Assembly: GCF_030996345.1 (NCBI RefSeq)
Contig: NZ_CP118747.1
Location: forward strand, 2,044,001 to 2,108,000
Source of the DNA: Acidithiobacillus sp. AMEEHan
Lineage (GTDB): Bacteria; Pseudomonadota; Gammaproteobacteria; Acidithiobacillales; Acidithiobacillaceae
DNA length: 64,000 nucleotides
Direction of reading: 5' to 3'
Shown here: positions 11,166-64,000 of the stretch, one piece after another
Numbering within the stretch: the first letter of the stretch is position 1
How the letters are laid out: each line of letters starts with the position of its first letter
Position numbers and translations under genes: made by a program
Notes under the pieces: generated by a model
Database searches by the model: none
What the model was told of the DNA's origin: nothing
Seen by the model: the letters and a program-made list of their open reading frames with translations, nothing else

Positions 11166-12503
<1,338 letters not shown>

Positions 12504-12527: not shown

Positions 12528-12554
12528 GCCCCACCGAGTGGTGGGGCTTTTTTT
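12528..12554 (+). terminator. Rho-independent terminator of sqr
   Basis: GCCCCAC (12528-12534) pairs with GTGGGGC (12541-12547) around a six-base loop, followed by seven T. The stem lies 24 bases after the sqr stop and just before the rluB leader, so it closes the sqr transcript. Confidence 0.9.
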
Positions 12555-12573
12555 ACTGCCGGGAGGCAGCCGA

Positions 12574-17235: not shown

Positions 17236-17246
17236 CGCCGCTACTC

Positions 17247-18056: not shown

Positions 18057-18079
18057 GTAGGCTCCTTCGCGCGGTCCAT

Positions 18080-47822: not shown

Positions 47823-50222
47823 GTGGAATACATCCGCTTCTTTGCCGAAATCGGGATCGATGACATCGCTCTAGTGGGCGGGAAGAACGCTTCCCTCGGG
47901 GAAATGTATCGGGCCCTGCGCCCGCTGGGGGTACGGGTACCCAACGGCTTCGCCATTACCGCCCACGCTTACCGGGATCTGCTCGACCACCACCGGGCTT
48001 GGCCCAGGCTACACGAAATCCTCGACGGCTTACAGGCGCATGAGGTCGAGGATCTTGCGCGACGCGGCAAGGCAGCGCGGGAGCTGATTTACAGTCTGGA
48101 GTTGCCCGAGCAACTGCAGGACGAGATTCTCGCCGCCTACGCCCGCCTGCGCGACGAATATGGCGAAAACCTCTCGCTCGCCATCCGCTCCTCTGCCACT
48201 GCTGAAGACCTGCCCACCGCGAGTTTCGCCGGTCAGCAGGATACCTTTCTCAACGTCAGTGGTGAAGCGGATCTACTCGACGCCTGCCGGCGCTGTTTTG
48301 CCAGCCTCTTCACCGATCGCGCCATCCATTATCGTATCGACGAGGGCTTCGACCACTTTCAGGTCGCGCTCTCCATTGGTGTCATGAAAATGGTGCGCTC
48401 GGACCTCGCGAGCAGTGGGGTGATGTTCTCTCTTGATACGGAAACCGGTTTTCGCGATGTCATTTTCATTACCTCCTCGTACGGACTGGGAGAAAACGTC
48501 GTGCAGGGATCGGTCAACCCCGACGAATTCTATGTCTTCAAGTCCGGATTTCGGCGGGGAAAGCGGGCGGTGCTGCGGCGTGTTCTCGGTAGCAAAAAAC
48601 TCAAAATGGTCTACGCTGCCGACAGCACCCGTCATGGGGTGCGTAATATCGCGACCACGGCCGCTGAACAGCAGCGCTTTTCCTTGGCGGACGAAGATGT
48701 TCTCACCCTCGCCGGCTACGCCATCCAGATTGAAGAACACTACAGCAAGGCGATCGGTGAAGAGCGCCCCATGGATATGGAGTGGGCCAAGGACGGCGAA
48801 GACGGTCAACTGTACGTCGTGCAGGCGCGCCCGGAGACCGTCGCCTCCCAGCGCAAGGGCACGGTGTTGCAGGAATATTATCTGCGCGAGCGGGGCACGG
48901 TACTCGTCAGCGGCCGCGCCGTAGGGAGTAAGATCGCTGCGGGTCAGGCGCGACACATTGCGACTTTGGGGGAACTGCATTTCTTCCAGCCAGGGGAAAT
49001 TCTGGTGGCCGATAACACCACTCCCGATTGGGAGCCGGTGATGAAACTTGCCGCCGGTATTGTCACCGAGCGTGGTGGCCGTACCTGTCATGCTGCCATC
49101 ATCGCGCGGGAATTGGGCATTCCGGCAGTGGTGGGTGCTGAGCACGCCATGAGCAAGATCCCAGATGGAAAGCCGGTAACCATCTCCTGCGCGGAGGGGG
49201 AAGTTGGCAATGTCTATGCTGACGCCCTGCATTTTGAGGTGGTGGAAACTGATCTGTCCGGATTGCCCCGGCCCAAAACGGAAATCATGATGAATCTGGG
49301 TGACCCTGAGCTGGCCTTTCAATTGCAGGCCTTGCCCAATGATGGTGTCGGACTGGCGCGGATGGAATTCATCATTGCCAATGCCATCAAGGTCCATCCC
49401 TTGGCTCTGCTACACCCCGAACGGCTCAGTGACGCGCAGGTGCGTCGGGAGATCAAGCGACTGACCGCCGAATATTCGAGCCCGGAAGAATATTTCGTGC
49501 AACGTCTGTCCGAGGGGGTCGGGACCATTGCCGCCGCCTTTTACCCGAAGCCCGTCGTGCTGCGTACCTCGGACTTCAAAAGCAACGAGTATGCCGCGCT
49601 GATCGGCGGTACGGATTTTGAGCCCGAAGAGGCCAATCCCATGTTGGGTTTCCGCGGTGCCTCGCGTTACGCCCACCCCAATTATGAAGAGGGATTTCGC
49701 CTCGAATGTCGCGCGATTCTGCGCGTGCGTGAGGAAATGGGGCTGGACAATGTCATCGTCATGCTGCCTTTCGTCCGCCGGGTAGAGGAGGCCGACGCCG
49801 TGTTGGCAAAGATGGCCGAATTTGGCCTACGTCGGGGCGAAAATGGTTTGCAGGTCTACGCCATGTGTGAAGTACCCAGCAACGTCTTACTGATCGATGA
49901 CTTTGCCAAACGCTTCGATGGCTTTTCCATTGGCAGCAACGACCTGACCCAGCTTGCGCTAGGGGTCGATCGGGACTCCGCCATTGTTGCCTTCGACTAC
50001 GACGAGCGCGATCCCGCGGTGAAGGTGCTCATCCAACAGGCCATAGATGGCTGCCGGCGTAACCACATCCACTCCGGTCTCTGTGGCCAGGCGCCCTCGG
50101 ATTATCCGGAAATGGCGGAATTTCTGGTACGGCTGGGCATTGATTCCATTAGCCTCAATCCGGATACCATTCTTTCCACTACCCGTCAGGTTCTGGAGCT
50201 GGAGAAATCTCTGCATCGATAA
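47823..50222 (+). CDS. ppsA: Phosphoenolpyruvate synthase
   Basis: PpsA converts pyruvate and ATP to phosphoenolpyruvate, AMP and phosphate, feeding gluconeogenesis. From the GTG at 47823 (with GGAGG 8 bases upstream) it is 799 residues, the usual length. An ATG at 47799 has its GGAG only one base away. Domains in order are the PPDK N-terminal ATP-binding domain (ALVGGKNASLGEMYRAL; SAIRSSATAEDLP-type LAIRSSATAEDLPTASFAGQ), the phosphohistidine domain with catalytic His in TERGGRTCHAAIIARELG, and the PEP-binding TIM barrel (FSIGSNDLTQLALGVDRDS, SGLCGQAPSDYP). It heads the gluconeogenic/pyruvate block. Confidence 0.95.
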   Translation: MEYIRFFAEIGIDDIALVGGKNASLGEMYRALRPLGVRVPNGFAITAHAYRDLLDHHRAWPRLHEILDGLQAHEVEDLARRGKAARELIYSLELPEQLQDEILAAYARLRDEYGENLSLAIRSSATAEDLPTASFAGQQDTFLNVSGEADLLDACRRCFASLFTDRAIHYRIDEGFDHFQVALSIGVMKMVRSDLASSGVMFSLDTETGFRDVIFITSSYGLGENVVQGSVNPDEFYVFKSGFRRGKRAVLRRVLGSKKLKMVYAADSTRHGVRNIATTAAEQQRFSLADEDVLTLAGYAIQIEEHYSKAIGEERPMDMEWAKDGEDGQLYVVQARPETVASQRKGTVLQEYYLRERGTVLVSGRAVGSKIAAGQARHIATLGELHFFQPGEILVADNTTPDWEPVMKLAAGIVTERGGRTCHAAIIARELGIPAVVGAEHAMSKIPDGKPVTISCAEGEVGNVYADALHFEVVETDLSGLPRPKTEIMMNLGDPELAFQLQALPNDGVGLARMEFIIANAIKVHPLALLHPERLSDAQVRREIKRLTAEYSSPEEYFVQRLSEGVGTIAAAFYPKPVVLRTSDFKSNEYAALIGGTDFEPEEANPMLGFRGASRYAHPNYEEGFRLECRAILRVREEMGLDNVIVMLPFVRRVEEADAVLAKMAEFGLRRGENGLQVYAMCEVPSNVLLIDDFAKRFDGFSIGSNDLTQLALGVDRDSAIVAFDYDERDPAVKVLIQQAIDGCRRNHIHSGLCGQAPSDYPEMAEFLVRLGIDSISLNPDTILSTTRQVLELEKSLHR

Positions 50223-50253
50223 GGTCAATTTTTTGCTGGATGAGGAGCTCGGG

Positions 50254-51774
50254 ATGCCCGATAAAAAGGTTCTGCTGGTGATTTTTGATGGCTTTGGGCT
50301 CAACCCCAATCGCGCCTTCAATGGCTGGGCGCAGGCGCGGACCCCACATCTCGATCATTACTTTGCCAGCAACCCGCACAGTGCCCTGCAGGCCTCCGGG
50401 CGGGCGGTGGGCTTGCCGGATGGGCAGTTTGGTAATTCCGAGGTGGGGCACCTGACCCTGGGTTCCGGACGCATCCTCAAACAGGATCTGCTGCGCATTG
50501 CTGATGCCATTGCCGATGGCAGCTTGGAGCAGTTGCCCAACTGGCAGAAAATACTGCAGAAAAGCAAACGCATTCATCTGATCGGCATGGTCTCCGATGG
50601 CGGCGTGCATTCGCATATCGAGCATCTCTTGGCAATGCTGCCCTTGTTGGTGCGGGCCGGTATGGAACCGGTCGTTCATTTCATCAGCGATGGTCGAGAT
50701 ACGCCCCCGCGCAGCGCCGATCGCTTCGTGAAGCGCCTGCAGGAGGCCTTGCAGCAGCTCGGCACGGGCCGTATCGCTACTTTGTCCGGCCGCTACTATG
50801 CCATGGACCGGGCTCGGCACTGGGAGCGCACGGAAAAGGCTTGGCGAGCCATGCTGTTGGGTGATGGGCAATCGGCAGAGGATGCCATGAGTGCTGTGCA
50901 GGCGGGCTGGCAACGAGATGGCGGGGATGAGTTCATTCAACCCACGGTGATTGGCGATCCGCAAAAGGCGCGCATTGCCGCCGATGATCCGGTGCTTTTC
51001 TTCAACTTCCGCTCCGACCGCATGCGCCAGCTCTGTGCCGCTATCGCCCTGCCCCATTTTGCCGAGTTTGATCGCGGCAGTGAAAGCGCGCGTATCAGTA
51101 CCTGCATGACCGCCTATGACGAGAGCTTCGATCTACCGGTATTGTTTCCGACCGAAATCCCCACGCAGGTGTTGGCAGAGGTCCTTGCCGATGCCGGCTT
51201 GGCACAGTTCCACTGTGCAGAAACTGAAAAGTACGCTCATGTGACCTATTTCTTCAATGGCGGCCGCGAGGAGGTTTTCCCTCTGGAGGAGCGTGAGATC
51301 ATCCCCTCCCCCGCCGTCGCCACTTATGACCTGCAACCGGAGATGAGCGCGCCGGCAGTGGCGGATCGCGTCATGGCCGCATTACGGTCGGACAACTACG
51401 CTTTTGTATTGGTCAATTTCGCCAATGGCGACATGGTCGGCCATACCGCCAAGATTCCCGCCATCCTCCGCGCCGTCGAGACCTTGGACCTGCAATTTCA
51501 TCGGGTTACGCAGGTGGCCTTGGCGCACGGGTATCGGGTCATTCTCACCGCCGATCATGGTAACTGCGATGAAATGGTCGACCCCGTCAGTGGCGAGCCG
51601 CACACCCAGCATACCGTCTACCCGGTGCCCTTCTTGCTGCTGGGCGAGCCCGGAGCGCGCCTCGGCATTGGTGCTGGTTTGGCCGACGTCGCGCCTACCA
51701 TACTGGATCTGTTGGGAGTGGAGAAACCTGCAGCGATGACGGGGCGCAGCCTGCTCCTGCATGCCGAGCTGTAA
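50254..51774 (+). CDS. gpmI: 2,3-bisphosphoglycerate-independent phosphoglycerate mutase
   Basis: This 506-residue alkaline-phosphatase-superfamily enzyme interconverts 3- and 2-phosphoglycerate. The N-terminal metal Asp is in VIFDGFGLNP, the catalytic Ser is in FGNSEVGHLTLGSGR, and HFISDGRDTPP, FFNFRSDRMRQL and the C-terminal metal motifs VNFANGDMVGHT and LTADHGNCDEM are all in place. The ATG at 50254 follows GAGGAG. It is 31 bases downstream of ppsA, the next enzyme but one (enolase lies between) in gluconeogenesis. Confidence 0.94.
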   Translation: MPDKKVLLVIFDGFGLNPNRAFNGWAQARTPHLDHYFASNPHSALQASGRAVGLPDGQFGNSEVGHLTLGSGRILKQDLLRIADAIADGSLEQLPNWQKILQKSKRIHLIGMVSDGGVHSHIEHLLAMLPLLVRAGMEPVVHFISDGRDTPPRSADRFVKRLQEALQQLGTGRIATLSGRYYAMDRARHWERTEKAWRAMLLGDGQSAEDAMSAVQAGWQRDGGDEFIQPTVIGDPQKARIAADDPVLFFNFRSDRMRQLCAAIALPHFAEFDRGSESARISTCMTAYDESFDLPVLFPTEIPTQVLAEVLADAGLAQFHCAETEKYAHVTYFFNGGREEVFPLEEREIIPSPAVATYDLQPEMSAPAVADRVMAALRSDNYAFVLVNFANGDMVGHTAKIPAILRAVETLDLQFHRVTQVALAHGYRVILTADHGNCDEMVDPVSGEPHTQHTVYPVPFLLLGEPGARLGIGAGLADVAPTILDLLGVEKPAAMTGRSLLLHAEL

Positions 51775-51859
51775 AAAGAGACTTGCCCATTCCCGATAGA
51801 CTGTCTACGCTAAATTCCGAGGGCAAGATCGGAATTGCCAATGGTTCAGGGAGGTCGTC

Positions 51860-52213
51860 ATGCCGGAAATGCAGGATCGCATCACGCAAATTGAAGAACT
51901 CACCCAACGTCTCAAGGAGCAATATCCTTCAGAAATCAATAGCTTTCTCGCCTTTATGGGAAAAGCGGAAGGCAGTCCGGCACTGAGCAAGGCGCAAAAG
52001 GAACTGATCAATGTGGGGTTGGCCGTCGCAGCACAATGCGAGTGGTGTATCGCCCTGCATGTGCATGGTGCCGTCAAGGCGGGCGCGAGCCGCGATGAGA
52101 TCATGAGTGCTGCCTTCCAGGCAGTGCTCATGCATGGTGGTCCGGCCCTGATGTATTTGGTGCCGCTTACCAAGGCTCTCGATGAGTTTCTCCCGGAGGC
52201 GGGCCATGCATAG
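51860..52213 (+). CDS. Carboxymuconolactone decarboxylase / AhpD-like protein
   Basis: This 117-residue helical protein has the AhpD-like active-site motif CEWCIALHVHGAVKAGAS (C-x2-C ... H-x3). This fits a thiol-disulfide or peroxidase-reducing role rather than a true decarboxylase. In Mycobacterium, AhpD is reduced by lipoamide-bearing E2 proteins. Here the gene directly precedes and overlaps pdhA, so a link to lipoyl redox chemistry is attractive but inferred. GGGAGG lies 9 bases before the ATG. Confidence 0.82.
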   Translation: MPEMQDRITQIEELTQRLKEQYPSEINSFLAFMGKAEGSPALSKAQKELINVGLAVAAQCEWCIALHVHGAVKAGASRDEIMSAAFQAVLMHGGPALMYLVPLTKALDEFLPEAGHA

Positions 52214-53255
52214 TGCGGATCCCGTTTTTTTGCTGCGCCAGATGCTACGCGCCCGCGCCCTGGAGGAGACCGCGGCAGAAGAGTACGCCGCTGGCAGGAT
52301 TGCAGGTTTTTTACATCTCTACCCTGGGGAGGAGGCAGTGGCAGCCGGAGTGCTCAGTTGCGCCGAACCCGGTGACTATATCGTCAGCACCTACCGCGAG
52401 CACGTACACGCCCTCCTGCGTGGCATTCCGGCGGCGGCCATTCTCGCAGAACTCCTTGGGAAAAAGACCGGAGTAAGCGGGGGAATGGGCGGTTCCATGC
52501 ACCTCTTCGATGCGCAGAGGCGCTTTCTCGGGGGCTACGCCATAGTCGGTGAGACCTTTCCCATTGCCCTGGGGGCTGGCTATGCCGTCGCCTATCGTCA
52601 GCTACCCGAGGCAGTCATTTGCTTCTTTGGCGACGGTGCGGTCAATCAAGGAACCTTCCATGAATCCCTGAACATGGCAGCCCTATGGCGTCTACCCATC
52701 CTTTTTGTCTGCGAAAACAATCACTATCAGATCGGTACGGAAATCCATCGCCACTCTGCTGTGGTTGAGGTCTATCGCCGCGCCTGCGCCTACAATATCC
52801 CTGCCGAGCGGATCAATGGCATGGACGTCCTTGCGGTGCAGCAGGCCGCCGAGCAGGCCCTGGCACTCATTCGCGCTGGTCAGGGTCCGCAGTTTCTCGA
52901 GTTCGAGACCTACCGCTACCGCGGCCATTCCATGGCCGATCCTGGCGCATATCGCCCGGCCAGCGAGGTACAAGCCTATCAAAGCCAAGATCCCATCAAG
53001 GAACTGGAAGGCGAGTTGTTCACCCAGGCCAATTGTCCCGCAGGTGATTGCGTACGACAATTTCAAGAGCAATGCTGTGCCGCTGGTCATCTCAGTAGTG
53101 AGGGACTGCGACAGCTGCAGGAAGAAATCGCCGCGGAAATGCGGACGGCCCTCGCCGACGCGCAGGCTGCGCCAATGCCAAGCCTTACGGAGGCGCAGGC
53201 AATCTTTCAGAAAAACCATCGCTTCGAGAATTTCTTTGGGAGGGGTGTAGCATGA
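52206..53255 (+). CDS. pdhA: Pyruvate dehydrogenase E1 component, alpha subunit
   Basis: This 349-residue thiamine-diphosphate enzyme subunit decarboxylates pyruvate. The ThDP-binding motif is FFGDGAVNQGTFHESLNMAA, ending in ENN (about residues 140-173). The regulatory-loop region EFETYRYRGHSMADPG is present. The short N-terminus and separate alpha and beta genes fit the alpha2beta2 type. The ATG at 52206 lies inside the AhpD-like gene and has GGAGG before it. The stop overlaps pdhB as ATGA. Confidence 0.93.
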   Translation: MHSADPVFLLRQMLRARALEETAAEEYAAGRIAGFLHLYPGEEAVAAGVLSCAEPGDYIVSTYREHVHALLRGIPAAAILAELLGKKTGVSGGMGGSMHLFDAQRRFLGGYAIVGETFPIALGAGYAVAYRQLPEAVICFFGDGAVNQGTFHESLNMAALWRLPILFVCENNHYQIGTEIHRHSAVVEVYRRACAYNIPAERINGMDVLAVQQAAEQALALIRAGQGPQFLEFETYRYRGHSMADPGAYRPASEVQAYQSQDPIKELEGELFTQANCPAGDCVRQFQEQCCAAGHLSSEGLRQLQEEIAAEMRTALADAQAAPMPSLTEAQAIFQKNHRFENFFGRGVA

Positions 53256-54244
53256 CGGAGTTGCTGTACTGGCAGGCCCTGAACCGCGCCCTGGACGAAG
53301 AGATGGCGCAGGACGATAAGGTGTTTCTCTTGGGTGAGGATGTCGGCCTCTATGGGGGCACCTATCGCGTCAGCGAAGGGCTCCTGGCCAAGTATGGCGA
53401 GTGGCGGGTGCGCGATACCCCGATCTCTGAAAACAGCTTTACCGGACTCGGTGTCGGCGCTGCGATGTTGGGACTGCGGCCAGTGGTGGAGATCATGACC
53501 ATCAATTTCGCCCTCCTCGCCCTCGATGCTTTGGTCAATATGGCGAGCAAGATCCCGTTCATGTCTGGTGGTCAGTTTCCCATGGCCTTGACGGTGCGAA
53601 TGCCAGGCGGGGTCGCCAAACAGTTGGGGGCACAGCACTCGCAGCGCCTCGAACATACCCTGATGAATGTTCCCGGCCTGCGTATCGTCGTTCCTGCAAC
53701 TCCTCAGGATGCCTACTGGCAACTTCGGCAGGCCATCCGCTCAGATGACCCGATCATCGTCCTCGAACACGAACTCCTGTACTTCCGCAAAGGAGAAGTG
53801 GTAACGAGTGGTAGTCCCTTACCCATACATGCAGCAGTGATCCGTCGTCCGGGACGCGATCTGACTTGTATCGCCTATTCGCGTATGGTGGAAGTAGCCT
53901 TGGCGGCGGCGGAGGAGCTCGCAAGGGATGGCATCGAAATGGAGGTCATCGATCTCCGCAGTCTCTCTCCCGTTGACTGGGAGCCCTGTGTGCAGTCGAT
54001 TGCCAGGACCCATCGTGCTTTGGTCTTGGAAGAAGATTGCCGCTTTGCCGGTGCCGGCGCTGAAATCGTTGCGACTATGCAAGAGCGCTGTTTCTATTTT
54101 CTGGACCGCCCCATCCAACGCACAGCCGGTCTCGATCTTCCCACGCCCTTTGCCGCGGAGCTGGAGTCCGCCACTATCCCCAATGTCGAGCGGACCTGTC
54201 AGGCAGCCAGAGACCTCGTCCAAATGTCAGGAGCAAACGCATGA
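53252..54244 (+). CDS. pdhB: Pyruvate dehydrogenase E1 component, beta subunit
   Basis: This 330-residue transketolase-like partner of PdhA is recognised by VFLLGEDVGLYGGTYRVSEG, the ThDP-activating Glu in VVEIMTINFALLALDALVNM, and the C-terminal transketolase domain (EMEVIDLRSLSPVDWE, ALVLEEDCRFAGAGAEIVAT). ATGA overlaps on both sides show tight coupling with pdhA and the E2 gene. The sequence resembles the cyanobacterial/plastid-type PDH beta subunit more than the enteric single-chain E1. Confidence 0.94.
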   Translation: MTELLYWQALNRALDEEMAQDDKVFLLGEDVGLYGGTYRVSEGLLAKYGEWRVRDTPISENSFTGLGVGAAMLGLRPVVEIMTINFALLALDALVNMASKIPFMSGGQFPMALTVRMPGGVAKQLGAQHSQRLEHTLMNVPGLRIVVPATPQDAYWQLRQAIRSDDPIIVLEHELLYFRKGEVVTSGSPLPIHAAVIRRPGRDLTCIAYSRMVEVALAAAEELARDGIEMEVIDLRSLSPVDWEPCVQSIARTHRALVLEEDCRFAGAGAEIVATMQERCFYFLDRPIQRTAGLDLPTPFAAELESATIPNVERTCQAARDLVQMSGANA

Positions 54245-55431
54245 AACAGGAAGTCATTATGCCCGTCCTGTCGGATACCATGCAGACTGGACGCTTGGTT
54301 CGCTGGAACAAGGCCGTCGGCGATGCGGTAAATAAGGGAGATGCCCTCGCCGAAGTCGAAACCGACAAGGCGATACTGGATGTGGAGGCCTTCCAGGATG
54401 GCTTCCTGGCTGGCCCACTGGCGCCAGTGGATACGGATATCCCGGTGCGCTCGGTGATCGCCTGGCTGGTGGATAGCAGAGAGGAGCTAGACACCGCGTC
54501 TTCGAGCAAGACTGCAGCCCCTGGCACCGGCGCCCAAGCCGCCAACCCTGCGCCGCCCGTTCCGGAGAGTTCTCACGAAACAGCGCCGCATGCAGCCGCG
54601 CAAGAGACGGTCTCGACCACTACTGTGGCCGAGCCTTACCCCCCACACACAGTGTCAGATGGCGTTCTTGCTAGCCCGTATGCCCGTGCTCTGGCTCAGG
54701 AACTGGGAATAGACCTGAGCACTTTGGGCACCGGCCCCATCGACAGCCCTCGCGTGCTGGCGGCGGCACTGCGCGGCCCGCTGCCAGATCTCAGTGCCGG
54801 CCCGAACTACCAGATCGAGCGCCTCGCCGAAGTACGTGCCGCGGCGGCCCGGAATATGCAGTCTGCCGTGCAGACGCCGGCCTTTCAGATTAGCGCACGC
54901 CTGCCCATCAGCACGCTGCAAGCGCAGGCCAAAGCCGCGAAACAGAGTTTCACCCTCGTTCTGGCACGCGCATGTGCCCTGACGGTCGCTGAAGACCCCT
55001 GGTTCAACCATCTCTGGACGCCGCGGGGACTGGCAAAGCGCGAACGGGTGGATGTGGCGATTGCCGTGGATACCGGCGATGCCCTGCTGACGCCGGTCCT
55101 GCGTGATGCGGCCCGGCGTCCGCTCAAGGAACTGGCGGAAGACTGGCGCATTCTACTTGGCAAGATCAAAAGAGGTCGCTTGGCTCCCGAGGATTATCGG
55201 GGGGGTACTTTCTACCTTTCCAATCTCGGGGTCTTTGACGTGGTGCAAAGCTTCGACGCCATCGTCCCTCTCGGTGCTGCAGCCATCTTGGCGGTAGCGG
55301 CAACCCAGGCCGATGGCAGCGGTGACTGTACCTTGAGTTGTGACCACCGAGTGATCTTTGGCGCCGATGCCGCCCGCTTTCTGCAGCGCCTTCGCGAGCG
55401 CATCGCCAATCCAGCCTGGCTGGATACCTGA
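54241..55431 (+). CDS. pdhC: Dihydrolipoamide acetyltransferase (PDH E2)
   Basis: This 396-residue E2 core has one lipoyl domain at residues 1-78 (lipoylated K43 in EVETDKAILDVEA), an Ala/Pro/Thr linker, a peripheral-subunit-binding domain near 140-180 (SPYARALAQELGIDLSTLGT), and the acetyltransferase domain. The active-site His is in SCDHRVIFGADAARFL, where the usual D-H-R-x-x-D-G has Phe for the second Asp. Plastid-type E2 proteins have Tyr there, so the change is probably lineage-specific. No E3 (lpd) gene is beside it. ackA follows after 9 bases. Confidence 0.92.
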   Translation: MKQEVIMPVLSDTMQTGRLVRWNKAVGDAVNKGDALAEVETDKAILDVEAFQDGFLAGPLAPVDTDIPVRSVIAWLVDSREELDTASSSKTAAPGTGAQAANPAPPVPESSHETAPHAAAQETVSTTTVAEPYPPHTVSDGVLASPYARALAQELGIDLSTLGTGPIDSPRVLAAALRGPLPDLSAGPNYQIERLAEVRAAAARNMQSAVQTPAFQISARLPISTLQAQAKAAKQSFTLVLARACALTVAEDPWFNHLWTPRGLAKRERVDVAIAVDTGDALLTPVLRDAARRPLKELAEDWRILLGKIKRGRLAPEDYRGGTFYLSNLGVFDVVQSFDAIVPLGAAAILAVAATQADGSGDCTLSCDHRVIFGADAARFLQRLRERIANPAWLDT

Positions 55432-55440
55432 GAAGCGCGC

Positions 55441-56607
55441 ATGGCTGAACTGGTTCTCGCTCTGAATAGCGGCTCATCTTCCCTCAAATTTGCTCTTTAC
55501 GAATATAGCGGCGAGTTCGGGCAAAGGGCGGGAGAAGGCGCGATTGAGCGGATTGGCCAGAGTGTCGGCCGGCTGTGGTGGCGGGCGAATAATGCCAACA
55601 TCGATCGCAATGCCGTTTTTCCCGATCATTCCGGCGCCCTGCGTGCTCTGCTGGACTGTTTTCAGGAGCTGGGCTTACAGCAGCTCGCCGCCATTGGGCA
55701 CCGTGTCGTTTCCGGTGGGCCGGAGCTGCGTGAGCACTGCATCATCGACGCCCAGGTGTTACAAATTCTCCGGGCATCCCTGCGCTTTGCCCCATTACAT
55801 CTTCCTGCCGAGATCGCCGTCATGGAGGCGGCCAGTAAGCATTGGCCGCAAACCCCGCAGTTTGCCTGCTTCGACACCGCCTTTCATCGCAGCATTCCGG
55901 AACTGGCGGCGCGCTATTCCCTGCCCCGCAATCTGTGGCAGGAAGGGATACGGAAGTATGGCTTTCACGGACTCTCTTACGAATACATCTGCACGCAGAT
56001 CGACAAATCCGGACGGAGCATCATCGCCCACCTGGGCAATGGCGCCAGTCTGGCGGCAGTGCGGGACGGTGTGTGCGTGGATACCAGTATGGGGCTCAGC
56101 CCCACGGGCGGCGTAGTCATGGGGACCCGTTGCGGCGATCTCGACCCCGGGGTACTTCTTTTTCTCCTCGAAGAAAAGGGCTACACCGCCAATCAGCTCG
56201 AACGCGTTCTCAACCATCTCTCGGGTCTCTTGGGTCTATCTGGTACCAGTGGCGACATGCAGGTCCTGCTGGCGGCCCGGGACAAAGAGCCACACGCAGC
56301 TTTCGCCATCGATGCCTTTGCCTACAGCGTGCGCAAGATGATCGGCAGCTTTCTGGCGGTCCTGGGAGGTGCGGATCGCTTGATTTTTACGGGCGGTATC
56401 GGCGAGCATGCCGCGCTGGTACGCGAGCTGATCTGCATGCCCCTCGCTAGCCTGGGATTTGTTTTGGACCGCGCCGCCAATCAGGCCGGGCAAAGACGAA
56501 TCTCCCAGCCCGACAGTCCCACCGAGATCCTCTGCATCCCTACCGATGAAGATCGCATGATTGCCGCTCATAGCTATCACCTTCTGCATCAATCGTCTGC
56601 CGCCTGA
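55441..56607 (+). CDS. ackA: Acetate kinase
   Basis: This 388-residue ASKHA-family kinase interconverts acetate/ATP and acetyl phosphate/ADP. Signatures are LALNSGSSSLKFALYE at the N-terminus, IRKYGFHGLSYEYI, AHLGNGASLAAVRDG, DTSMGLSPTGGVVMGTRCGD, and the C-terminal LIFTGGIGEHAALVR. It lies 9 bases after the E2 gene and is probably co-transcribed with it. No phosphotransacetylase gene is in view, so the source of acetyl phosphate is unclear. Confidence 0.95.
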   Translation: MAELVLALNSGSSSLKFALYEYSGEFGQRAGEGAIERIGQSVGRLWWRANNANIDRNAVFPDHSGALRALLDCFQELGLQQLAAIGHRVVSGGPELREHCIIDAQVLQILRASLRFAPLHLPAEIAVMEAASKHWPQTPQFACFDTAFHRSIPELAARYSLPRNLWQEGIRKYGFHGLSYEYICTQIDKSGRSIIAHLGNGASLAAVRDGVCVDTSMGLSPTGGVVMGTRCGDLDPGVLLFLLEEKGYTANQLERVLNHLSGLLGLSGTSGDMQVLLAARDKEPHAAFAIDAFAYSVRKMIGSFLAVLGGADRLIFTGGIGEHAALVRELICMPLASLGFVLDRAANQAGQRRISQPDSPTEILCIPTDEDRMIAAHSYHLLHQSSAA

Positions 56608-56670
56608 GAGCTCACAGACGAAATCGGGGGAATTCCAGCGCTTCTCCTGGGTGATGGGCGGAAGTCGGCC

Positions 56671-56698
56671 TTGCTTTGTCCGGGGATTTTGCTATCAT
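56671..56698 (+). promoter_or_regulatory. Promoter of the tRNA-Lys gene
   Basis: TTGCTT (56671-56676) and TATCAT (56693-56698) are 16 bases apart. Transcription would start near 56705, a few bases before the tRNA 5' end at 56709, as expected for a monocistronic tRNA gene. Confidence 0.55.
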
Positions 56699-56708
56699 CT
56701 CGCGGATC

Positions 56709-56784
<76 letters not shown>

Positions 56785-56792
56785 TATAAAAC

Positions 56793-56829
56793 AGGCACTT
56801 AGGAATATTTTCTAGGTGCCTTGTTTTTT
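56793..56829. terminator. Bidirectional hairpin terminator between tRNA-Lys and the RT gene
   Basis: AGGCACTTAG (56793-56802) pairs perfectly with CTAGGTGCCT (56812-56821) around a nine-base loop and is followed by TTGTTTTTT. On the other strand the hairpin is followed by TGTTTTATAT. It can therefore end both the tRNA transcript and the convergent transcript of the reverse transcriptase gene. Confidence 0.85.
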
Positions 56830-56939
56830 GTCATCCAACTTATGTCCAACCTTAAAGTAAAAACAAGCTATCCCAGCGGGCGGGATCAAGGGCATCTCCG
56901 TGGCCGTAAACGCGCAGGATCATGGGCTGCTACTCCGCG

Positions 56940-59900
56940 CTATGAGGGAATGGACATTCGATAAGCATGGATTCTGAACCCCTCAGGCACGGGCTTGAAT
57001 GGATCATCTTCATCCGGCCAACGATTAGCCCGACTTTGGAATTCCCGCAGATTATGGATATCTACATTGACCACTACCACATGCTCGTTCTCGCCGCCGC
57101 GTAACCGACAGACGTCCCGCTTGTGATTAGTCTTTTCGGGCGCCCGCACACGGCTGTCGCCAAATCGCCTGTTGTTGACCAAGGCCACATACGCATGAAC
57201 ATCCAAGCTAGCGGATTCCACCAGCGCCGAGAATGTCTCAAGGTCTTGGTTCCAAGACAGAACCATCATGCAGTCTACCGCCCCCTGAAAATTCAGTCGA
57301 TGCTGAACATTCTGGAGCTCGGAGCAGACCAGTACACCAAAGGCAAAACCTTTGTGGAGGTAAACAGGCTTGGCGCTGCGATCCCCAGGGAACAAGGTCC
57401 AACGCTTACCGAAATCCCTTTGCAAGAGGAAATCTTCCCCTGGGGCTGGCAGTGTCTTGGGCTGGTGTACCCGGACAAATGCGGGGAAGCCAAGGCGATC
57501 ATCGGCAAGAACGAGGACGGCTTCGCTGTGAATGGTGCGTTCCGCGACATGATAGTCCAGACCAGCAATCAGACTGATTCCTGAGTCCCGAAGCAGACCC
57601 GTGACGGTGCCAAGCCACCGTTCGGGCAAAGATAATTCCGGTAACAGTAGGTGTGTGGGCTTTGGACTTGCCTTAATTGCCTGATTCACTACATCTTCAA
57701 TACGCTTATACCGTGATCTGGACAGGTCTGACCGACCACTAGCGGCCGCTTTCCACGTGTCATCCGAGGTCAACAGGCTGCTGATGCCAAGCAACACCGG
57801 CTTATGACTCTTGCCACCCAGGATGGCCAGATTGATGTCATTCGGGTTGGCTTCACTGGGCTCCTGTGTACCAGGATCAAGAAGCGATTCCCAAACCCAT
57901 ACTCCCCGAAGCGCTCGCACATAGCGCGCCCAATTCCTAGTTGGAGCGTGCTTGTCGCCATCTTTGCCGAGCAAAACACACTCCTGAGGTAGGAACAGAG
58001 AAACCTCCTCTGTCGAATAAGGGCGCGTTGGAAACAAATAAGGCAGGAATGAAATGGCCTCGCTCCCTGTCGCCGACAGCCCTGCTCTGGGATGCACTCT
58101 GAATGTGCTAAGGTCGCCGTTAGTTTTCGATCTCCGAAGGAAGTCAGAAAGGTCATCCAGGCAATCGTAACACTTGGCGAGATAGTCTTCACCACTAACT
58201 GCTGGGCGCTGACGAGTCGCATCCCTATGCAGATGATCTTTGTAAGAGACTTTCGCCCAATCCGCTTCGCGAATTGCGAGTGAGACCGATTCCAAGTCAT
58301 CTTCCTTACCCAGCAACCCGACAGCCTCACATAATTCGAAAGCGACCTTAGGTAAGGGCTGCAGACCACCCTTCCGTTTCCCCCAGCGCAGCGATCTAGA
58401 TATGGCATCAGCAGCAGATTTTCTCACGCCATCTCGTACAGACTCCCATTCGGTCTGTAGACCTCTTTCCGGTACTTTTATGTCATGTCCGTTCACACGG
58501 ATACATTCAATGGTTACCCTCTCAACCTGTGTCAGCGCAGCCAGCGCCGCATCGAACAGGCGTTTAGCATCCGGCCAGTCTTTCAACGCCACCGCCAGCG
58601 ACAGCAATCGTGGCAGGTAATCTAAGTGATCAAAAATCTTGTCTGGCCGAAGAATGTGGTTCAAGGCGAATTGGTAAAACTTGCGGCGTTCGGTCTTCCA
58701 GTCATCTGGACGCAAGTCCCGCGAAAGGATCTCCACGGCACGTAATAAAACGGACCACCCTAGCCGCCTGACGGACAGTCCGTCAGCCTTGCGCAATGTG
58801 TCTGCTTCTTCGGATGCCTGCCCTGCGGCGGCTAATACCTTGGCAGCTGCCATGGACTCCAGATTGTCAGGGTTTGGCATCAGGCGGCGTTCGCTCGACA
58901 CGCTCCGAATCTGGGACTCAATGCTATCCAGCAAATCCAGACCGCCTTGCCCGTCCAGAAAGAAGACCTTCTGCTTTGACTGTTGCAGCAAAAGCGTGGT
59001 CTCACCTTGATAGGCTCCCGGTAATTGCAGATAGATATTCTCTTGATCTTTTCGCGGTGGGGGGAAGCTCGACGTCCGTTTGGCGATGAACTTCTGTAAT
59101 TTTGGAAAATCAACCACATCCCCTGGGTCACGCAGCACAATGAAAATATCGTCCACATATCTGCCGTAGTAGACAGGACTCAGTTGTTGCTCAATTTCAC
59201 GGTCTAGACCAATCAGTAGGGCATTCGATACCACACGGGAAATTGAGAGACCAATAGGCAAGCCGCCAACAAGTGGCACATCCGATTGTTTGGGCTCGCA
59301 CCCCAGTTCGACAAGCTTTGCCAAAGCCCGGTCGGACCAAGCCACAAGGGCATCTGCGAAATCGGAGGTGAACGCCTTCTCCCATGGCGTTAATTCGATC
59401 TTGGCGTAATCATGGAAGCACTTCCCCTTCATGAACGCTGGTGCAATCCGATGGTAGTAACTGTTCAAGTCCATCGTGATGGCAATAACAGATCTATCGG
59501 CCTCCAGTTCTTGGCGGATTGCCTTGAGACCCCGTTCCCGCCATTGCCGATAGGGGACAAAATAAGGGTAGAATGATCCGATTGCTTCGGTGTGATAGGG
59601 GCCGAGCGTTCCTTCAGGTGAGCCCAATTCAGGGCGATACCTCCGTAAACGGTTCCCGTAAGCCGATTTGGTCAATGCAGCATCGAACTTGTGTCCGACC
59701 AGGTTGATCCAAAGCGCGGACAGGATGTGCATTTCTACAGGGAAGTTACCAACCAATCGGAATTCCGGTGTTAGGTCATGCGTGACACATAGGTGCTGGA
59801 AGGCGCGATCAGGATTGGAGAAGAATCCATGCCCATTCGGTATTTTCTTGTCTGTTTTTGGCTTCGCAGACAACTTCTTTGCGACTAGGTGGGGCTCGCC

Positions 59901-60113
59901 CAAGTTTTCTGTAAGCACATCGATAATCTGACCCGTTTGGAGACGCTCCAGCAAGCCCGTCAAGCGTGTCGGCAGAGTTGATTCGTAATCGACGAATTCG
60001 CGGGCGACAAAGAGCGAGCGTTCAAAATAGCAGTCTGCCTTTGCCTTCCTGAAGGCATAGAAAAGCTCGGTTAAAGATAAGTCTGACCAGAACTCAATAT
60101 TGCGCTGTGCCAT
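56940..60113 (-). CDS. Reverse transcriptase-nitrilase fusion (UG1 / DRT type 1 defence protein)
   Basis: This 1057-residue two-domain protein has a reverse transcriptase region at about residues 110-400. It contains motif A Asp 215 (AITMDLNSYYHRI), motif B-like GLPIGLSISRVVSNALL (about 284-300) and the catalytic Y319-V-D-D322. A long helical middle (about 410-750) precedes a nitrilase/C-N hydrolase domain (about 757-1020) with a complete Glu-Lys-Cys triad: E825 (LLLPELSLPE), K885 (VHQPKTLPAPGED) and C929 (GVLVCSELQN). RT plus C-terminal nitrilase is the UG1 architecture of defence-associated reverse transcriptases (DRT1), which protect against phages. Both active sites look functional. It is the last gene of the minus-strand island, pointing at tRNA-Lys, and is visibly A+T-richer than upstream genes. 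Confidence 0.88.
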   Translation of the reverse strand: MAQRNIEFWSDLSLTELFYAFRKAKADCYFERSLFVAREFVDYESTLPTRLTGLLERLQTGQIIDVLTENLGEPHLVAKKLSAKPKTDKKIPNGHGFFSNPDRAFQHLCVTHDLTPEFRLVGNFPVEMHILSALWINLVGHKFDAALTKSAYGNRLRRYRPELGSPEGTLGPYHTEAIGSFYPYFVPYRQWRERGLKAIRQELEADRSVIAITMDLNSYYHRIAPAFMKGKCFHDYAKIELTPWEKAFTSDFADALVAWSDRALAKLVELGCEPKQSDVPLVGGLPIGLSISRVVSNALLIGLDREIEQQLSPVYYGRYVDDIFIVLRDPGDVVDFPKLQKFIAKRTSSFPPPRKDQENIYLQLPGAYQGETTLLLQQSKQKVFFLDGQGGLDLLDSIESQIRSVSSERRLMPNPDNLESMAAAKVLAAAGQASEEADTLRKADGLSVRRLGWSVLLRAVEILSRDLRPDDWKTERRKFYQFALNHILRPDKIFDHLDYLPRLLSLAVALKDWPDAKRLFDAALAALTQVERVTIECIRVNGHDIKVPERGLQTEWESVRDGVRKSAADAISRSLRWGKRKGGLQPLPKVAFELCEAVGLLGKEDDLESVSLAIREADWAKVSYKDHLHRDATRQRPAVSGEDYLAKCYDCLDDLSDFLRRSKTNGDLSTFRVHPRAGLSATGSEAISFLPYLFPTRPYSTEEVSLFLPQECVLLGKDGDKHAPTRNWARYVRALRGVWVWESLLDPGTQEPSEANPNDINLAILGGKSHKPVLLGISSLLTSDDTWKAAASGRSDLSRSRYKRIEDVVNQAIKASPKPTHLLLPELSLPERWLGTVTGLLRDSGISLIAGLDYHVAERTIHSEAVLVLADDRLGFPAFVRVHQPKTLPAPGEDFLLQRDFGKRWTLFPGDRSAKPVYLHKGFAFGVLVCSELQNVQHRLNFQGAVDCMMVLSWNQDLETFSALVESASLDVHAYVALVNNRRFGDSRVRAPEKTNHKRDVCRLRGGENEHVVVVNVDIHNLREFQSRANRWPDEDDPFKPVPEGFRIHAYRMSIPS

Positions 60114-60227
60114 ACTCTTTCCCTCAGTCCTAGAAAATTATTTTTGGCCAGAAAAACTCAAAATGGTTGTGAGAGGGGACCACGGAAATCGAGCGATTTT
60201 GGCGAAGGCAAGCAGATTCCAGAAGTC

Positions 60228-60866
60228 TCATGCCAGAAACCGCTCCGCAGTCCGCCGAACGGTCTGTAACCCCTGACGGATGTTGTCAATCCCGCGCTCC
60301 AATTTTTCCTGTGCTACATGGAAGAGAGTCATATATAGGCAGATCTGTCCGGCGTGTTTGGTGCAGCGGCCAACACATACTGGGAAGAGCGCGTCTGGTA
60401 ATCGACTCGCGGCGAGATTCTGGATACGCCAGTTGGGAATACCGGCTCCACCAATTGCCGACCGATCCCACAGTGCGGTTCTGGAAGTCCATTGCCAGAA
60501 CCGCGTACTCGCAGATTTTTGGTCCGACGACGATAAAAAAGGCCAGAAGATAAGAAATCGCTTATGCGCGTCATTGGGAATAATCTTTGACTGGTACTTT
60601 GGGAACACCCTACACCAGCATCTACTCTGGTCCCTGGCTTTAGACGACAACAGGTTATTCAGGAAGACCGCGATCTGCGGTCTGGCGGCGGCAAAGAGCA
60701 GCCTTCGAACGAATGCCAATTGCGCAAGCTCTAAGAGTGACGCCTGGGTGAACGCGAAACCTGTCAGCAACAAGGCGATTGTAGCGATATCGCCACTCAA
60801 CAGAAGCCAAATGGCCTTATCGGCCTCAGATATCAGCGGCGGAGAGCCCGTAATATTTTTTGCCAC
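60228..60866 (-). CDS. Small membrane-type ORF upstream of the RT gene, possibly frameshifted
   Basis: A GTG at 60866, preceded by GGGAAGGGATGG, opens a 212-residue frame 18 bases after the DUF499 stop. Residues 18-40 (AIWLLLSGDIATIALLLTGF) are a convincing membrane helix and the last 30 residues are amphipathic helical, but the middle reads poorly. Adding one base at T6 (60535-60540 on the plus strand is A6) would give a second helix, FLIFWPFFIVVGPKICEYAV, in another frame. The gene is therefore either frameshifted or decayed. I recall membrane-protein partners being described with UG1 RTs, which would fit, but I cannot verify this here. The family is unrecognised. Confidence 0.45.
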   Translation of the reverse strand: MAKNITGSPPLISEADKAIWLLLSGDIATIALLLTGFAFTQASLLELAQLAFVRRLLFAAARPQIAVFLNNLLSSKARDQSRCWCRVFPKYQSKIIPNDAHKRFLIFWPFLSSSDQKSASTRFWQWTSRTALWDRSAIGGAGIPNWRIQNLAASRLPDALFPVCVGRCTKHAGQICLYMTLFHVAQEKLERGIDNIRQGLQTVRRTAERFLA

Positions 60867-60884
60867 CCATCCCTTCCCATTTCT

Positions 60885-63731
60885 TCAGTCCTCGTTTTCG
60901 AACTCGGCGTTCCTAAACTTCAGTACGTTGCAGTTCTCCTTCACGGCGCGCTGAAGCCCGTCGTCAAAGCCGGTAGGTGACTCGGCCTGGATCTCGATGG
61001 CGATCTTTACCTTCACGTCGGGGCGCATGGTGAACTGCTGGACGACCTCGTCGACCAAGTCGGCGAACTGCTTCTTCGCCAGAAACGGGTCGAGCTCGAT
61101 GCTGCCGTAGAACCGCTTTTTGACCGTCTTCCCCGCGGTAGTGCCGTTCGAGGCATGGCCGCCATTGGTCGAGTCCTCCACGCGGGAGGTATCCCCACCG
61201 ACCGGGACAGTTGTCGTGGCTGCACCGCCGCTTGCCTCGGCGGCCTTGTCCCGAGACTCTTCCTCCGCTGCACGCAACGCATCCAAATAGGCTGCTGCAG
61301 CGGATGGCTCGATCAGTAACAGCGACGAATCCATGAACAGTGCCGTGCGCTTGCCGTAGCTGAAACCAACATACTGGCCATCCTCCTTCCCTTGGGCAAA
61401 CCCAAAAAAGTCCCGGCTCTCCGCTCCCGCTGCCAGCGTGCGCTGGAATACTGCGTCGTCCTTCAGGCGCGGCAGGTAGAGTTGCTGGCAAGTCTGCTGC
61501 CACACGTTGAGCGCGTTGGCTTCCGCGATATCAGCCTTCCAGAACCAGTCCTTCAACACTTTGGCCAGATGGATTGGCGCCCATTCGCAGATGAGGAGTT
61601 CGTTCTCTTTGAGCACACGTTCGATTTCCTGTGACAAATTAGGTGCGCCCGGATTGACCTGGAGGTGCTCCCACTGAATGTCGGATAGCCCTTTGCCAGG
61701 GCGAGCCTCCTGCATGGGCGCAAGCATCCACTTGTAGGTCTCACGGATCATCCGGCGAAGCGCATCGTTTGCATCCTCCTGACTCTTGCTCGCCTGCCGC
61801 GCCTGGAACTGATCAAGGTTGAGCTTCATCTCCTTGATGTCGCTCACAATGGACTGCCACGCAAGGGTCGATCGCACCTGATCCTTCAGACGGCTCACGC
61901 TGTCGTAGTCGGCAGCGAGGAAGATCAAACGATTCTGCTTGAAGCGGGGCTGGTCGGCACGGTTTTTCAGAATCTCGGTTGCGCGATTGAGGGCTGGGCT
62001 GTGGCCATTGCGGCTGAATGCTGCATCGGGCGGCAGCACGACCAGGCGTAATTGCCAGTCATCCGGGACATCGCCACTGGCCGTGAAGATGTGGATACCG
62101 CCAAACACACTGGAAGCAAAGGACCTCTGAATTTGGCCACGGATAGCGGGAAACACGTCCTCCTTGTCCTGGAAGCGGCGTTTCCGCTCCTCCATTTCGC
62201 GGCGCAGGTTGGGCCGCGTATCGAACCAGAAGCGGTTGTTGCCACTGTTCAGGTAATGCAGGCGGTCACTCAAACGGCGCAGCGCATCTTTGTAGAGGCC
62301 AACCTGTTGGCCCGGTTGCGCCACACCCAGCGCGATGCGTTCCAGTTCGATGCCGCGCACCATCTGGTTCAGCGTGCTCGGTGCACTGCCGAGAAAAATT
62401 GTCCGTGCGGAACGGCGGCAGGCTTGTAAGCTGCCCAGGCGAGGATCAGCGCTCTCAATCTCAGTGGTTTCCGCACGCTCGCCGTCTACGTCGCGCTCAA
62501 CGACCGGATCCCAACCCTGCGGCAGGTAGTAGATCATCTCATTGCGGGTATCCGCATCCTGCAGCGGAAAACTGCCGGGCATGATCAACGGGTCTTTGTC
62601 GTTGTCCTTCCAGAGTCGGTGAATGACCTTGGCCATCAACTTCAGCACACCACGGGTGCGCTGGAAGTTGTCGAGTGACGACCAGTCCTCGTAGAGTCGA
62701 TCGAACACCTCCGGGTGGATGGGATAGGCGTCCATCAGTCGGTCAAAATACCGGCTTTCCAGTGTCTCGTGGGGGAAATCTTCGCTATTCTCCGTATAGT
62801 AATCGGCAAATGCCCGGCATACCGATTCAGCCGCCAGCTTGTCGTTGATACTGGAAAACAGGCGGCGACGGACGATCTCGAACGCCTCCTCGGTGCCCAC
62901 CGGCTTCCACAGCGCCTGTATCCGGCCAAAGGCGTGTGCCAGCGCTTCCAATGCCCTCACCCCACGTTGGCTGCCGGCTTCCTTGTCCGATTCGGGTAGC
63001 GACGCCAGCAGCACCGCTGTGGGCACAGCCTTGAGCGCCTCGGTTAGCGCCTGAACAAAACTCAGGTTGGAATCAAAGGTGCCGCCCGCAAGGGTCATGC
63101 CCTCCTCGAATTGGCGCACATAGGCCACCAGCTCGTCGATCAGAATGACACAGGGCGCGTAGCGGCCCAGCAGGTTGGCCAGCACCTCCTTACCTGGCGA
63201 GGTGCCCGAAGCGTCTGCTTGCGCCACCAGCGCGTAGCCCTCGGCCCCGCCTAACTGCCACGCCAAATCTCCCCACAGGGTGCGGATCGCCTGGCCATCA
63301 CGCACCACCGGCTGGTTGGGTGAGGACTTGATGCCATCGAGCACGGCGACACGCGCCTTGGGCAATTCCGTCACGCCAGCCGCATCGAGAATGGCGGGAA
63401 CCCCCGGCAGGTCGCTGGTGTCAGTCGCCCCTTTGGCGAGGTGGTAGACCGCCAGCATCGTATGCGTCTTACCTCCACCGAATGCCGTTTGCAGTTGAAT
63501 GACCGGGTCTCCCCCTTTACCGGTCAGTCGTTTGACCACAGAGTCAAGCAGCAGACGCATGCCTTCGGTGATGAAGGTGCGCTGAAAGAACAGCGTAGGA
63601 TCCTGATACTCAGGCGTCGCCGTGCCTGCGTGGACGCGCGATAGATCCGCGGCAAACTCGGATTGCAGGAAGGTGCCCTTGAGAACATCTTCATGTGGGA
63701 CGGCAATTTCACGCCACGGTTTTAGACTCAT
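60885..63731 (-). CDS. DUF499 P-loop ATPase, anti-phage-associated
   Basis: This 948-residue protein opens with [20 protein letters not shown], typical of DUF499. Walker A is TAFGGGKTH (about residues 82-90) and Walker B is [15 protein letters not shown] (about 193-207). Further C-terminal are a DUF499 helical region and a low-complexity linker (about 820-870), then a small domain after it. DUF499 proteins occur next to DUF1156 methylases in phage-defence loci, where they are thought to act as ATP-driven partners, like PglY/BrxC. The ATG at 63731 follows GGGGGGAAG. The DUF1156-like gene ends 15 bases upstream. Confidence 0.85.
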
Positions 63732-63746
63732 TGTACTTCCCCCCAA

Positions 63747-64000
63747 TCAAATTCCCAATTGCACCTGCGAACCCACGATGCCGGTATCTGCCGATGCCTG
63801 TTCAATGCCTGACCACGCGGCCACCAGCTCATTATAGGCACGTGCCTCCTCAGCCCAACCTTTACGCTCGCAGAGGGTATAGAGGCGATAGGCCAGTGCG
63901 CGGATGGGCTCCGCCTGGGCGGGCATGCGCGCAAGCAGCACGCCTGCAGCAGTTTCGCCATCCTGGTTGAGTGCGCGGATCATCTGGTGCAGAGCCTCCC
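63747..64000 (-). CDS. C-terminal end of a probable DUF1156 DNA methylase (runs off right edge)
   Basis: About 84 residues precede a TGA at 63747-63749, and the frame is open to base 64000. The segment [20 protein letters not shown], then [10 protein letters not shown], resembles the C-terminus of DUF1156 proteins, large adenine-specific methylases with a zinc ribbon. Position directly before a DUF499 gene supports this, since the two are a recurrent pair. The catalytic part lies outside the window, so the assignment rests on a short tail and synteny. Confidence 0.6.

Follow-up and report, generated by a model that had tools for sequence, protein, structure and literature searches.

P0001, the protein examined here, is encoded in a 64,000-nucleotide stretch of Acidithiobacillus sp. 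AMEEHan (contig NZ_CP118747.1, positions 2,044,001 to 2,108,000; hereafter the window, whose numbering is used throughout). Sequence comparison places it in the UG5-nitrilase group (UG, unknown group), a known family of class 3 defence-associated reverse transcriptases (DRTs) that join a reverse transcriptase (RT) to a C-terminal nitrilase. Our reading, which we hold at a probability of about 0.6, is that P0001 is a UG5-nitrilase-type class 3 DRT carried on a tRNA-Lys element behind an HmaABC operon and working in the manner proposed for DRT1, a UG1 protein. This reading builds on the observed domain architecture, UG5 membership, invariant catalytic residues, fold model, lid motif and mobile-element position, and P0001 is probably a single-protein anti-virus system in which a DNA-making enzyme is joined to a nitrilase. 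We also find methyltransferase defence operons upstream of many UG5-nitrilase genes, an association that hints at possible cooperation between the two kinds of defence, with their coupling put forward here as a hypothesis.

Fusions of a nitrilase to RTs from unknown groups 1 and 5 have been noted previously (PMC8934634). The PADLOC profile RT_UG5-nitrilase (PDLC03780) matched residues 3-1056 of P0001 with 931 bits (E = 2.2e-280), whereas the UG1 profile Drt1a gave a partial match of 77 bits; two genuine UG1 proteins, L053 and L056, scored 1342 and 1380 bits on Drt1a. In an RT tree of 13 UG5-nitrilases, 8 UG1 proteins, one Leptospira RT-nitrilase and 7 other RTs, the 13 UG5-nitrilases and the UG1 proteins formed separate clades (support 99/97 and 99/99, respectively), with long branches among the other RTs and reference labels taken from PADLOC profiles, not from a curated UG set. 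P0001 fell deep inside the UG5 clade, beside the copies from Acidithiobacillus sp. YTS05 and a Halothiobacillus metagenome-assembled genome (MAG), and an approximately unbiased (AU) test rejected forcing it together with UG1 (p = 0.00025). The first-pass annotation of this DNA had called the protein a UG1 (DRT type 1) member, a label to be dropped should the RT phylogeny place it outside UG1. The domain order is indeed that of UG1, and the nitrilase residues and a tail motif are common to both; the profile scores, the tree and the AU test nevertheless rule out UG1 membership for practical purposes, and the label is therefore replaced by UG5-nitrilase. A single RT origin of the UG5, UG1 and Leptospira RT-nitrilases was not rejected by the AU test (p = 0.346). 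Additionally, four nitrilases encoded in the same genome stood apart, in a nitrilase tree, from 23 domains of UG5, UG1 and two further proteins (100/100). With long branches, few outgroups and the stand-alone nitrilase L052 placed inside the UG1 nitrilases, this tree suggests, without establishing it, one fusion origin for the UG5 and UG1 proteins. Because the RT clades stand apart while the nitrilase domains group together, UG5 and UG1 have the fusion type in common and differ in lineage.

The gene is real, intact and correctly bounded. The single open reading frame (ORF) of the first-pass annotation was confirmed to the base on the minus strand; it runs from an ATG start without stop or frameshift, while the plus-strand frame is full of stops. 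A search of the genome with P0001 at E 0.001 returned P0001 itself as the sole match, and Pfam gave a weak RVT_1 match alone, with a score under the cut-off. The motif A aspartate (in DLNSYY) and the YVDD motif lie at the residues first reported (Table 1). The reported nitrilase triad Glu825-Lys885-Cys929 is present with its numbering shifted by one, residues 825, 885 and 929 being Pro, Pro and Val; the residues in question are E826, K886 and C930, together with a second glutamate, E893. The initial picture of a DRT-kind RT-nitrilase fusion, both of its active sites intact by sequence, carries over to the UG5 assignment.

We modelled the nitrilase domain alone with AlphaFold2 (AF2) on A4, an alignment of ten nitrilase domains (7 UG5, 3 UG1). 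The best structural matches found with VIA-align were amidases, including that of G. pallidus (4kzf, Z 23.6 over 239 residues, 2.8 Å), and yeast Nit2 (4h5u, Z 23.3); a nitrilase filament (8uxu) gave Z 21.0. In the model, C930 (domain residue 176) comes after a strand and opens a helix, and this strand-to-helix turn is the usual nucleophile position in the nitrilase family. The structural check proposed in the first-pass annotation thus came out in favour as regards a confidently predicted nitrilase fold with C930 at the expected turn, and the model speaks to the fold, not to the pocket distances between the catalytic residues. Furthermore, a profile built from A1, an alignment of 8 UG5-nitrilase sequences, matched the DRT1 structure 9YFD with E 6.8e-17 and set C930 on C1116, the catalytic cysteine of DRT1 (PMC13275509).

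Table 1 Features of the P0001 locus in window numbering. Invariance counts (18 full-length and 23 RT sequences) include P0001 itself.
Feature	Position	Strand	Basis or remark
UG5-type reverse transcriptase-nitrilase fusion P0001, 1057 aa	56940..60113	minus	ORF; PADLOC; RT tree
RT motif A Asp D215	59469..59471	minus	invariant in 23/23 UG5-nitrilase sequences
RT catalytic YVDD, residues 319-322	59148..59159	minus	both Asp invariant in 23/23 UG5-nitrilase sequences
S407, candidate protein-priming serine (prediction)	58893..58895	minus	invariant in 23/23 UG5-nitrilase sequences
Nitrilase (CN-hydrolase) domain, residues 755-1057	56943..57851	minus	AF2 pLDDT 84.8, pTM 0.88
Nitrilase E826	57636..57638	minus	invariant in 18/18 full-length UG5-nitrilases; 10/10 UG5 and UG1 domains (A4)
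Nitrilase K886	57456..57458	minus	invariant in 18/18 full-length UG5-nitrilases; 10/10 UG5 and UG1 domains (A4)
Nitrilase second Glu E893, seven residues past K886	57435..57437	minus	invariant in 18/18 full-length; 10/10 in A4
Nitrilase nucleophile C930	57324..57326	minus	invariant in 18/18 full-length; 10/10 in A4; aligned with C1116 of DRT1 9YFD
C-terminal K1040-x-x-P1043 lid-like motif, residues 1040-1046	56976..56996	minus	K and P invariant
tRNA-Lys(CTT), probable integration site	56709..56784	plus	ARAGORN, Rfam
Attachment-site repeat	56738..56829	plus	tRNA 3' part and flank; 92 bp
HmaC-to-RT spacer, 771 bp	60114..60884		not conserved; weak transposase remnant
HmaC (AAA+ ATPase, DUF499)	60885..63746	minus	PADLOC HmaC, 1579 bits
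HmaB (DNA methylase), 3' end	63747..64000, gene to 66926 beyond window	minus	PADLOC HmaB, 1768 bits
HmaA	67483-71016, beyond window		PADLOC HmaA, 2152 bits
Tyrosine integrase	87273-88499, beyond window		Pfam Phage_integrase, E 1.3e-25

A mechanism can be proposed by analogy with DRT1, in which template-free DNA synthesis is primed on S402, the DNA drives assembly of tetramers and filaments, and the nitrilase pocket is shut by the C-terminal tail of a neighbouring subunit (PMC13275509). Both active sites of DRT1 are required for defence, which proceeds by abortive infection, and the substitutions K1219A and A1223F abolish it, as do C-terminal deletions (PMC13275509). The first-pass remark that the cooperation of polymerase and nitrilase is poorly understood is, for UG1, overtaken by the structure and model of this paper (June 2026). 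The same study found protein-linked (covalent) DNA on purified DRT1, DRT5S and DRT5L without added template, and from their names we infer that DRT5S and DRT5L are UG5 proteins. By this analogy, the RT domain of P0001 would synthesise short DNA without a template, using the protein's own chain as primer (possibly at S407), and the DNA-tagged protein would assemble into nitrilase-cored tetramers or filaments in which the K1040-x-x-P1043 tail closes the nitrilase pocket of the neighbouring subunit and keeps it inactive. Phage infection might then upset the assembly and set free the E826-K886-E893-C930 nitrilase, which would attack an essential amide- or nitrile-like metabolite so that the infected cell arrests or dies. 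For P0001 itself, priming, assembly, trigger, substrate and anti-phage activity are thus argued by analogy. The defence role first proposed for it is probable, UG5 RT-nitrilase being already part of a validated system: an RT-nitrilase with a protein of one transmembrane segment (1TM) from P4-like satellites, reported in 2022 (PMC9122126).

The strongest sign of a lid common to UG5-nitrilase and UG1 proteins is, judging from alignments, the K-x-x-P tail, whose K and P are invariant in 18/18 full-length UG5-nitrilases, 8/8 UG1 proteins and all ten rows of A4. By tail length, K1040 is the equivalent of DRT1 K1219 (PMC13275509 for DRT1). The UG1 protein L140 agrees with DRT1 1219-1229 in tail length and in the residues singled out in that paper (K, T, A and the last H), and the UG1 tail motif falls within the DRT1 lid. 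As for priming, S407 is the only invariant Ser, Thr or Tyr between Y319 and Y499 in the eight rows of A1, making it a candidate site. It shares a column with the UG1 priming serine in one alignment and sits four residues off in two others; the UG1 alignment puts S402 as the serine of a [LIV]-S-G-P-like motif (read from L154 and L155).

Several observations weigh against a DRT1-like P0001. The register of S407 against the UG1 serine differs between alignments, conservation of the DRT1 priming serine S402 does not extend to other class 3 DRTs (PMC13275509), and A1223, required in DRT1, is a glutamate in P0001. AF2 modelled the whole chain poorly (pLDDT 51), so that domain packing and oligomer interfaces are hypothetical, and the Foldseek matches of this model (nitrilases, DRT9 and UG15) are a weak lead. 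P0001 is about 21% identical to L060, a viral-contig protein with the layout of the tested UG5 system, namely the P4-satellite variant in which a PADLOC RTasTM gene overlaps the RT gene by 4 bp; presumably its contig also encodes a P4-type primase. No one-TM partner was found beside P0001, where the spacer ORF has no match and the other side is occupied by the tRNA. Phage records yielded no homologue, and the protein is known here from its sequence. The thought that P0001 might have degenerated or lost its activity and merely persist in a mobile island draws on broken or split relatives, such as L049/L166 with its in-frame stop, and finds nothing in the gene itself; given the undamaged frame, the intact catalytic residues and 89% full-length identity to the YTS05 copy, we regard it as very improbable.

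The tRNA-Lys gene lies 155 bp past the P0001 stop codon, and a second copy of its attachment-site repeat (91%, 92 bp) occurs at 88758-88849, beyond the window and beside the tyrosine integrase; a TrwC-type relaxase gene lies between the two copies. The repeats and the integrase therefore indicate that the P0001 gene is most likely the tRNA-proximal cargo of a tRNA-Lys integrative element of about 32 kb. Judged by a look at the sequence, this element (56785-88849, mostly past the window) also holds AAA ATPase, regulator and ADP-ribosylglycohydrolase-like genes. Upstream of P0001, the HmaA-HmaB-HmaC operon is complete and on the same strand; Hma is a candidate defence system (PMC8565338). Homology to the YTS05 locus (L004) starts 24 bp before the RT ATG, and homology to the Halothiobacillus locus (L005) starts 9 bp before it and ends 8 bp past the RT stop. 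At YTS05, the RT and the tRNA-side flank are conserved, an MmeI-type IIG system takes the place directly upstream, and a segment with the relaxase gene recurs farther up; the Halothiobacillus RT lies behind type I genes.

Two candidate additions to the system found no support. The spacer ORF (60228-60866) contains a single hydrophobic stretch, and its codon-position signal is weak; it matched neither Pfam nor PADLOC, hence not RTasTM, and no DNA relative was found in plasmids or elsewhere in the genome. Its residues 159-210 are transposase-like (48%, E 3e-4), and instead of a TM partner we read it as a scar. For a conserved flanking non-coding RNA, as in DRT2 and DRT9, Rfam gave no match in 50000-64000 other than the tRNA, and homology to close relatives ends at the gene edges.

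Methyltransferase defence operons lay upstream, in the same strand run, at 13/23 UG5-nitrilase loci, compared with 1/12 UG1 loci (Fisher p = 0.0097) and 0/15 loci of other RTs (p = 0.00028; both pooled, 5.5e-5). The hsdM genes of L050, L186, L188, L189 and L190 are 80-93% identical to one another; since five of the eight type I loci thus carry closely related hsdM, we also give counts with related operons collapsed, in which 8/18 UG5-nitrilase loci remain (p = 0.049 against UG1, which is borderline, 0.0036 against other RTs and 0.0014 pooled). The upstream walk stayed on the same strand, allowed gaps of up to 900 bp and at most six genes, and called a methyltransferase from a phmmer match plus an NPPY-like motif. 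The gap limit was picked with the 771-bp spacer of the window known, and a 300-bp limit gives 12/23 for UG5 and 0/12 for UG1. The methyltransferase queries came mostly from UG5 loci, with two taken from UG1 loci, which may have led to under-calling among the controls; at the control locus L163 we observed a 441-aa gene with an NPPY-like motif. Control RTs were matches of the UG5 profile itself, and 19 regions were reduced to 17 and then to 16 scored by dropping L197 and L209 (contigs under 4 kb) and L204 (no RT found). Before L210 was reassigned, the counts were 0/11 for UG1 and 1/16 for other RTs; L210 proved to be UG1 (Drt1a), and they were therefore corrected, leaving 15 control RTs and 12 UG1 loci (8 from genomes or plasmids, 3 viral and L210). 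Several stretches stop at contig ends (e.g., L060), where absence means not found. Outside the 23 stand L016 (the second E. coli copy), two further S. meliloti records, and the contig ends or fragments L159, L191, L192 and L181, where L192 probably holds the missing half of the L189 gene. The 253 E. coli genomes entered as one locus, L143.

Five kinds of upstream system make up the 13. Type I restriction-modification (R-M) genes were matched by PADLOC at L005, L050, L057, L184 and L186, and named by phmmer similarity to L050 at L188, L189 and L190. KwaA and KwaB precede the RT at L184, L189 and L190, with weak scores in the latter two; at these loci (L184, 6999-16116) the R-M genes, kwaA, kwaB and the UG5 RT-nitrilase form one strand run, the first gene of the L184 operon encoding 797 aa and the L190 hsdR being in two ORFs. 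In the BREX-like loci L051 (G395; called with BrxC upstream) and L185 (G795; called by its methyltransferase), the RT overlaps the PglX/type IIG methyltransferase gene by 4 bp, as the RT also overlaps its preceding gene at L050; after the RT, both carry a gene of 577 or 599 aa, 60% identical. At the DISARM locus L161 (G662), the RT sits between DrmMI and DrmA-DrmB, in a run on one strand (1988-19462) of DrmD/DrmA-like, DrmMI, 526-aa, DrmMI-like 436-aa, RT, DrmA and DrmB genes. A type IIG system lies upstream at L004, and Hma at the window locus. The ten loci at which no methyltransferase operon was found are L143 (E. coli), L018 (S. meliloti), four viral contigs, L166, L183, L187 and L212. Among UG1 loci, L154 has an HsdM-like gene downstream, which was not counted as upstream, and at L210 (G189, 2631-10444) the UG1 gene follows HmaB-HmaC by 58 bp, so that Hma is paired with an RT of another clade. 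Among the papers listed in our searches, we located no report of UG5-nitrilases with R-M, BREX, DISARM or Hma operons, although one may be in print in the UG/Abi RT survey.

Two explanations for this arrangement can be weighed, both concerning the upstream operon and both compatible with a DRT1-like mechanism. UG5 RT-nitrilases might be exchangeable suicide modules that guard type I R-M, type IIG, BREX, DISARM and Hma operons, firing when the first layer is blocked or yields DNA fragments, with DNA synthesis by the RT reporting the state of restriction. For P0001, the trigger would be tied to Hma, so that phage inhibition of that system or a build-up of restricted DNA unleashes a second, suicidal layer, as for PrrC in EcoprrI; PrrC/EcoprrI and PARIS are precedents for such guarding (PMC12707154). 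The upstream counts, also when collapsed, the 4-bp overlaps and the RTs inside BREX-like and DISARM operons are in keeping with this, as is the finding that P0001 and its three closest relatives (89, 82 and 60% identical) are each preceded by a system of another kind: Hma, MmeI-type IIG, type I and DISARM. However, 10/23 loci have no such operon found, the validated RT-nitrilase with 1TM was tested as a stand-alone system, no protein that the RT-nitrilase could sense is obviously common to the systems upstream, and defence genes cluster anyway, which limits what a neighbourhood count can say. We therefore consider a guard role doubtful, both for the family in general and for P0001 and its Hma operon.

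The alternative, to which we give about even odds, is that the RT-nitrilase is an independent single-gene defence that tends to be the last or an inner gene of defence operons because it brings little promoter sequence, without any coupling. The cassette common to the window, YTS05 and Halothiobacillus copies starts 9-24 bp ahead of the RT ATG and so holds little or no promoter. L022 and L184 share 95% identity but have unlike type I operons in front of them (their HsdM proteins are 27% identical); at L183, which is 84% identical to L184, the genes ahead of the RT are Mu-transposase-like and TniQ, and no methyltransferase was found. A passenger life alone does not account for the hosts being methyltransferase systems and not defence operons generally. 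At L183 (G850, 3564-13226), the downstream position relative to these genes makes the UG5-nitrilase a probable Tn7-like cargo.

Acidithiobacillus is an acidophilic, chemolithotrophic genus, and the nearest relative of P0001 (YTS05) is consistent with the host type first suggested. The further idea that such a host makes the protein unusual is weak, because the gene rides a mobile element and relatives occur in E. coli, Sinorhizobium, the Halothiobacillus MAG and others. In E. coli, 253/5426 complete genomes carry the gene, which adjoins AbiE genes in two records inspected and is near tRNA-Thr in one; its product (WP_000222103.1) is 43% identical to P0001. Among viral contigs, scans with P0001, L017 and L018 gave none, the L059 scan gave only L059, and the A1 scan (best 80 of 138) included L058-L061, which matched the nitrilase part, among the matches listed; the UG1 scan gave L154-L156. 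A UG5_small scan matched 5/398 genomes at E 1e-20, and each of the five matches was the UG5-nitrilase gene. Other arrangements were seen in passing. RT and nitrilase are two adjacent ORFs at the viral contig L061 (7782-10650), which may be a natural two-gene form, and are contiguous in frame with a stop between them at L049/L166 (G407). The Leptospira interrogans plasmid L019 (1-4232) carries a divergent RT-nitrilase outside both clades, with an annotated 3'-5' exonuclease 11 bp past it. L052 (G170, 6761-7642), the stand-alone nitrilase gene that groups with UG1 nitrilases in the tree, has a 372-aa ORF holding a YIDD motif about 4.5 kb downstream.

In a search on Acidithiobacillus and defence RTs, none of the papers listed treated that subject by title. 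As a protein, P0001 adds an intact representative to an anti-phage family already known, and the context finding matters more: RT-nitrilases are often installed after or within methyltransferase-based defences of five kinds, so that the hypothesis of layered immunity can be tested directly. The invariant S407 and K1040-x-x-P1043 additionally offer precise sites for asking whether the UG1 mechanism is general to RT-nitrilases.

Compared with known systems, P0001 shares with the P4-like UG5 RT-nitrilases (PDLC03780; PMC9122126) the RT clade, the C-terminal nitrilase, the catalytic residues, the invariant serine and the tail. It differs in context and sequence: L060, about 21% identical to P0001, has an overlapping RTasTM gene, whereas P0001 has none found and lies behind HmaABC. 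That satellite system has itself been called "reminiscent of" type-I DRT, though its RT belongs to a different clade (PMC9122126). With DRT1/UG1 (9YFD, PMC13275509), P0001 has in common the class 3 architecture, the nitrilase residues and the K-x-x-P lid motif; it belongs to another RT clade, is about 170-240 residues shorter, and its candidate priming serine is not demonstrably equivalent. No drt1b was found beside it, a gene accompanying about 18% of drt1 genes (PMC13275509). The fold and the Glu-Lys-Glu-Cys set are those of the nitrilase/amidase superfamily (4kzf, Nit2, 8uxu), from which P0001 departs in having CSE at the nucleophile and in its fusion to an RT. Finally, PrrC in the type IC EcoprrI locus offers a working analogy for a toxic effector gene carried with an R-M operon; it is an unrelated protein, and its coupling is demonstrated, whereas that of UG5-nitrilases is hypothetical.

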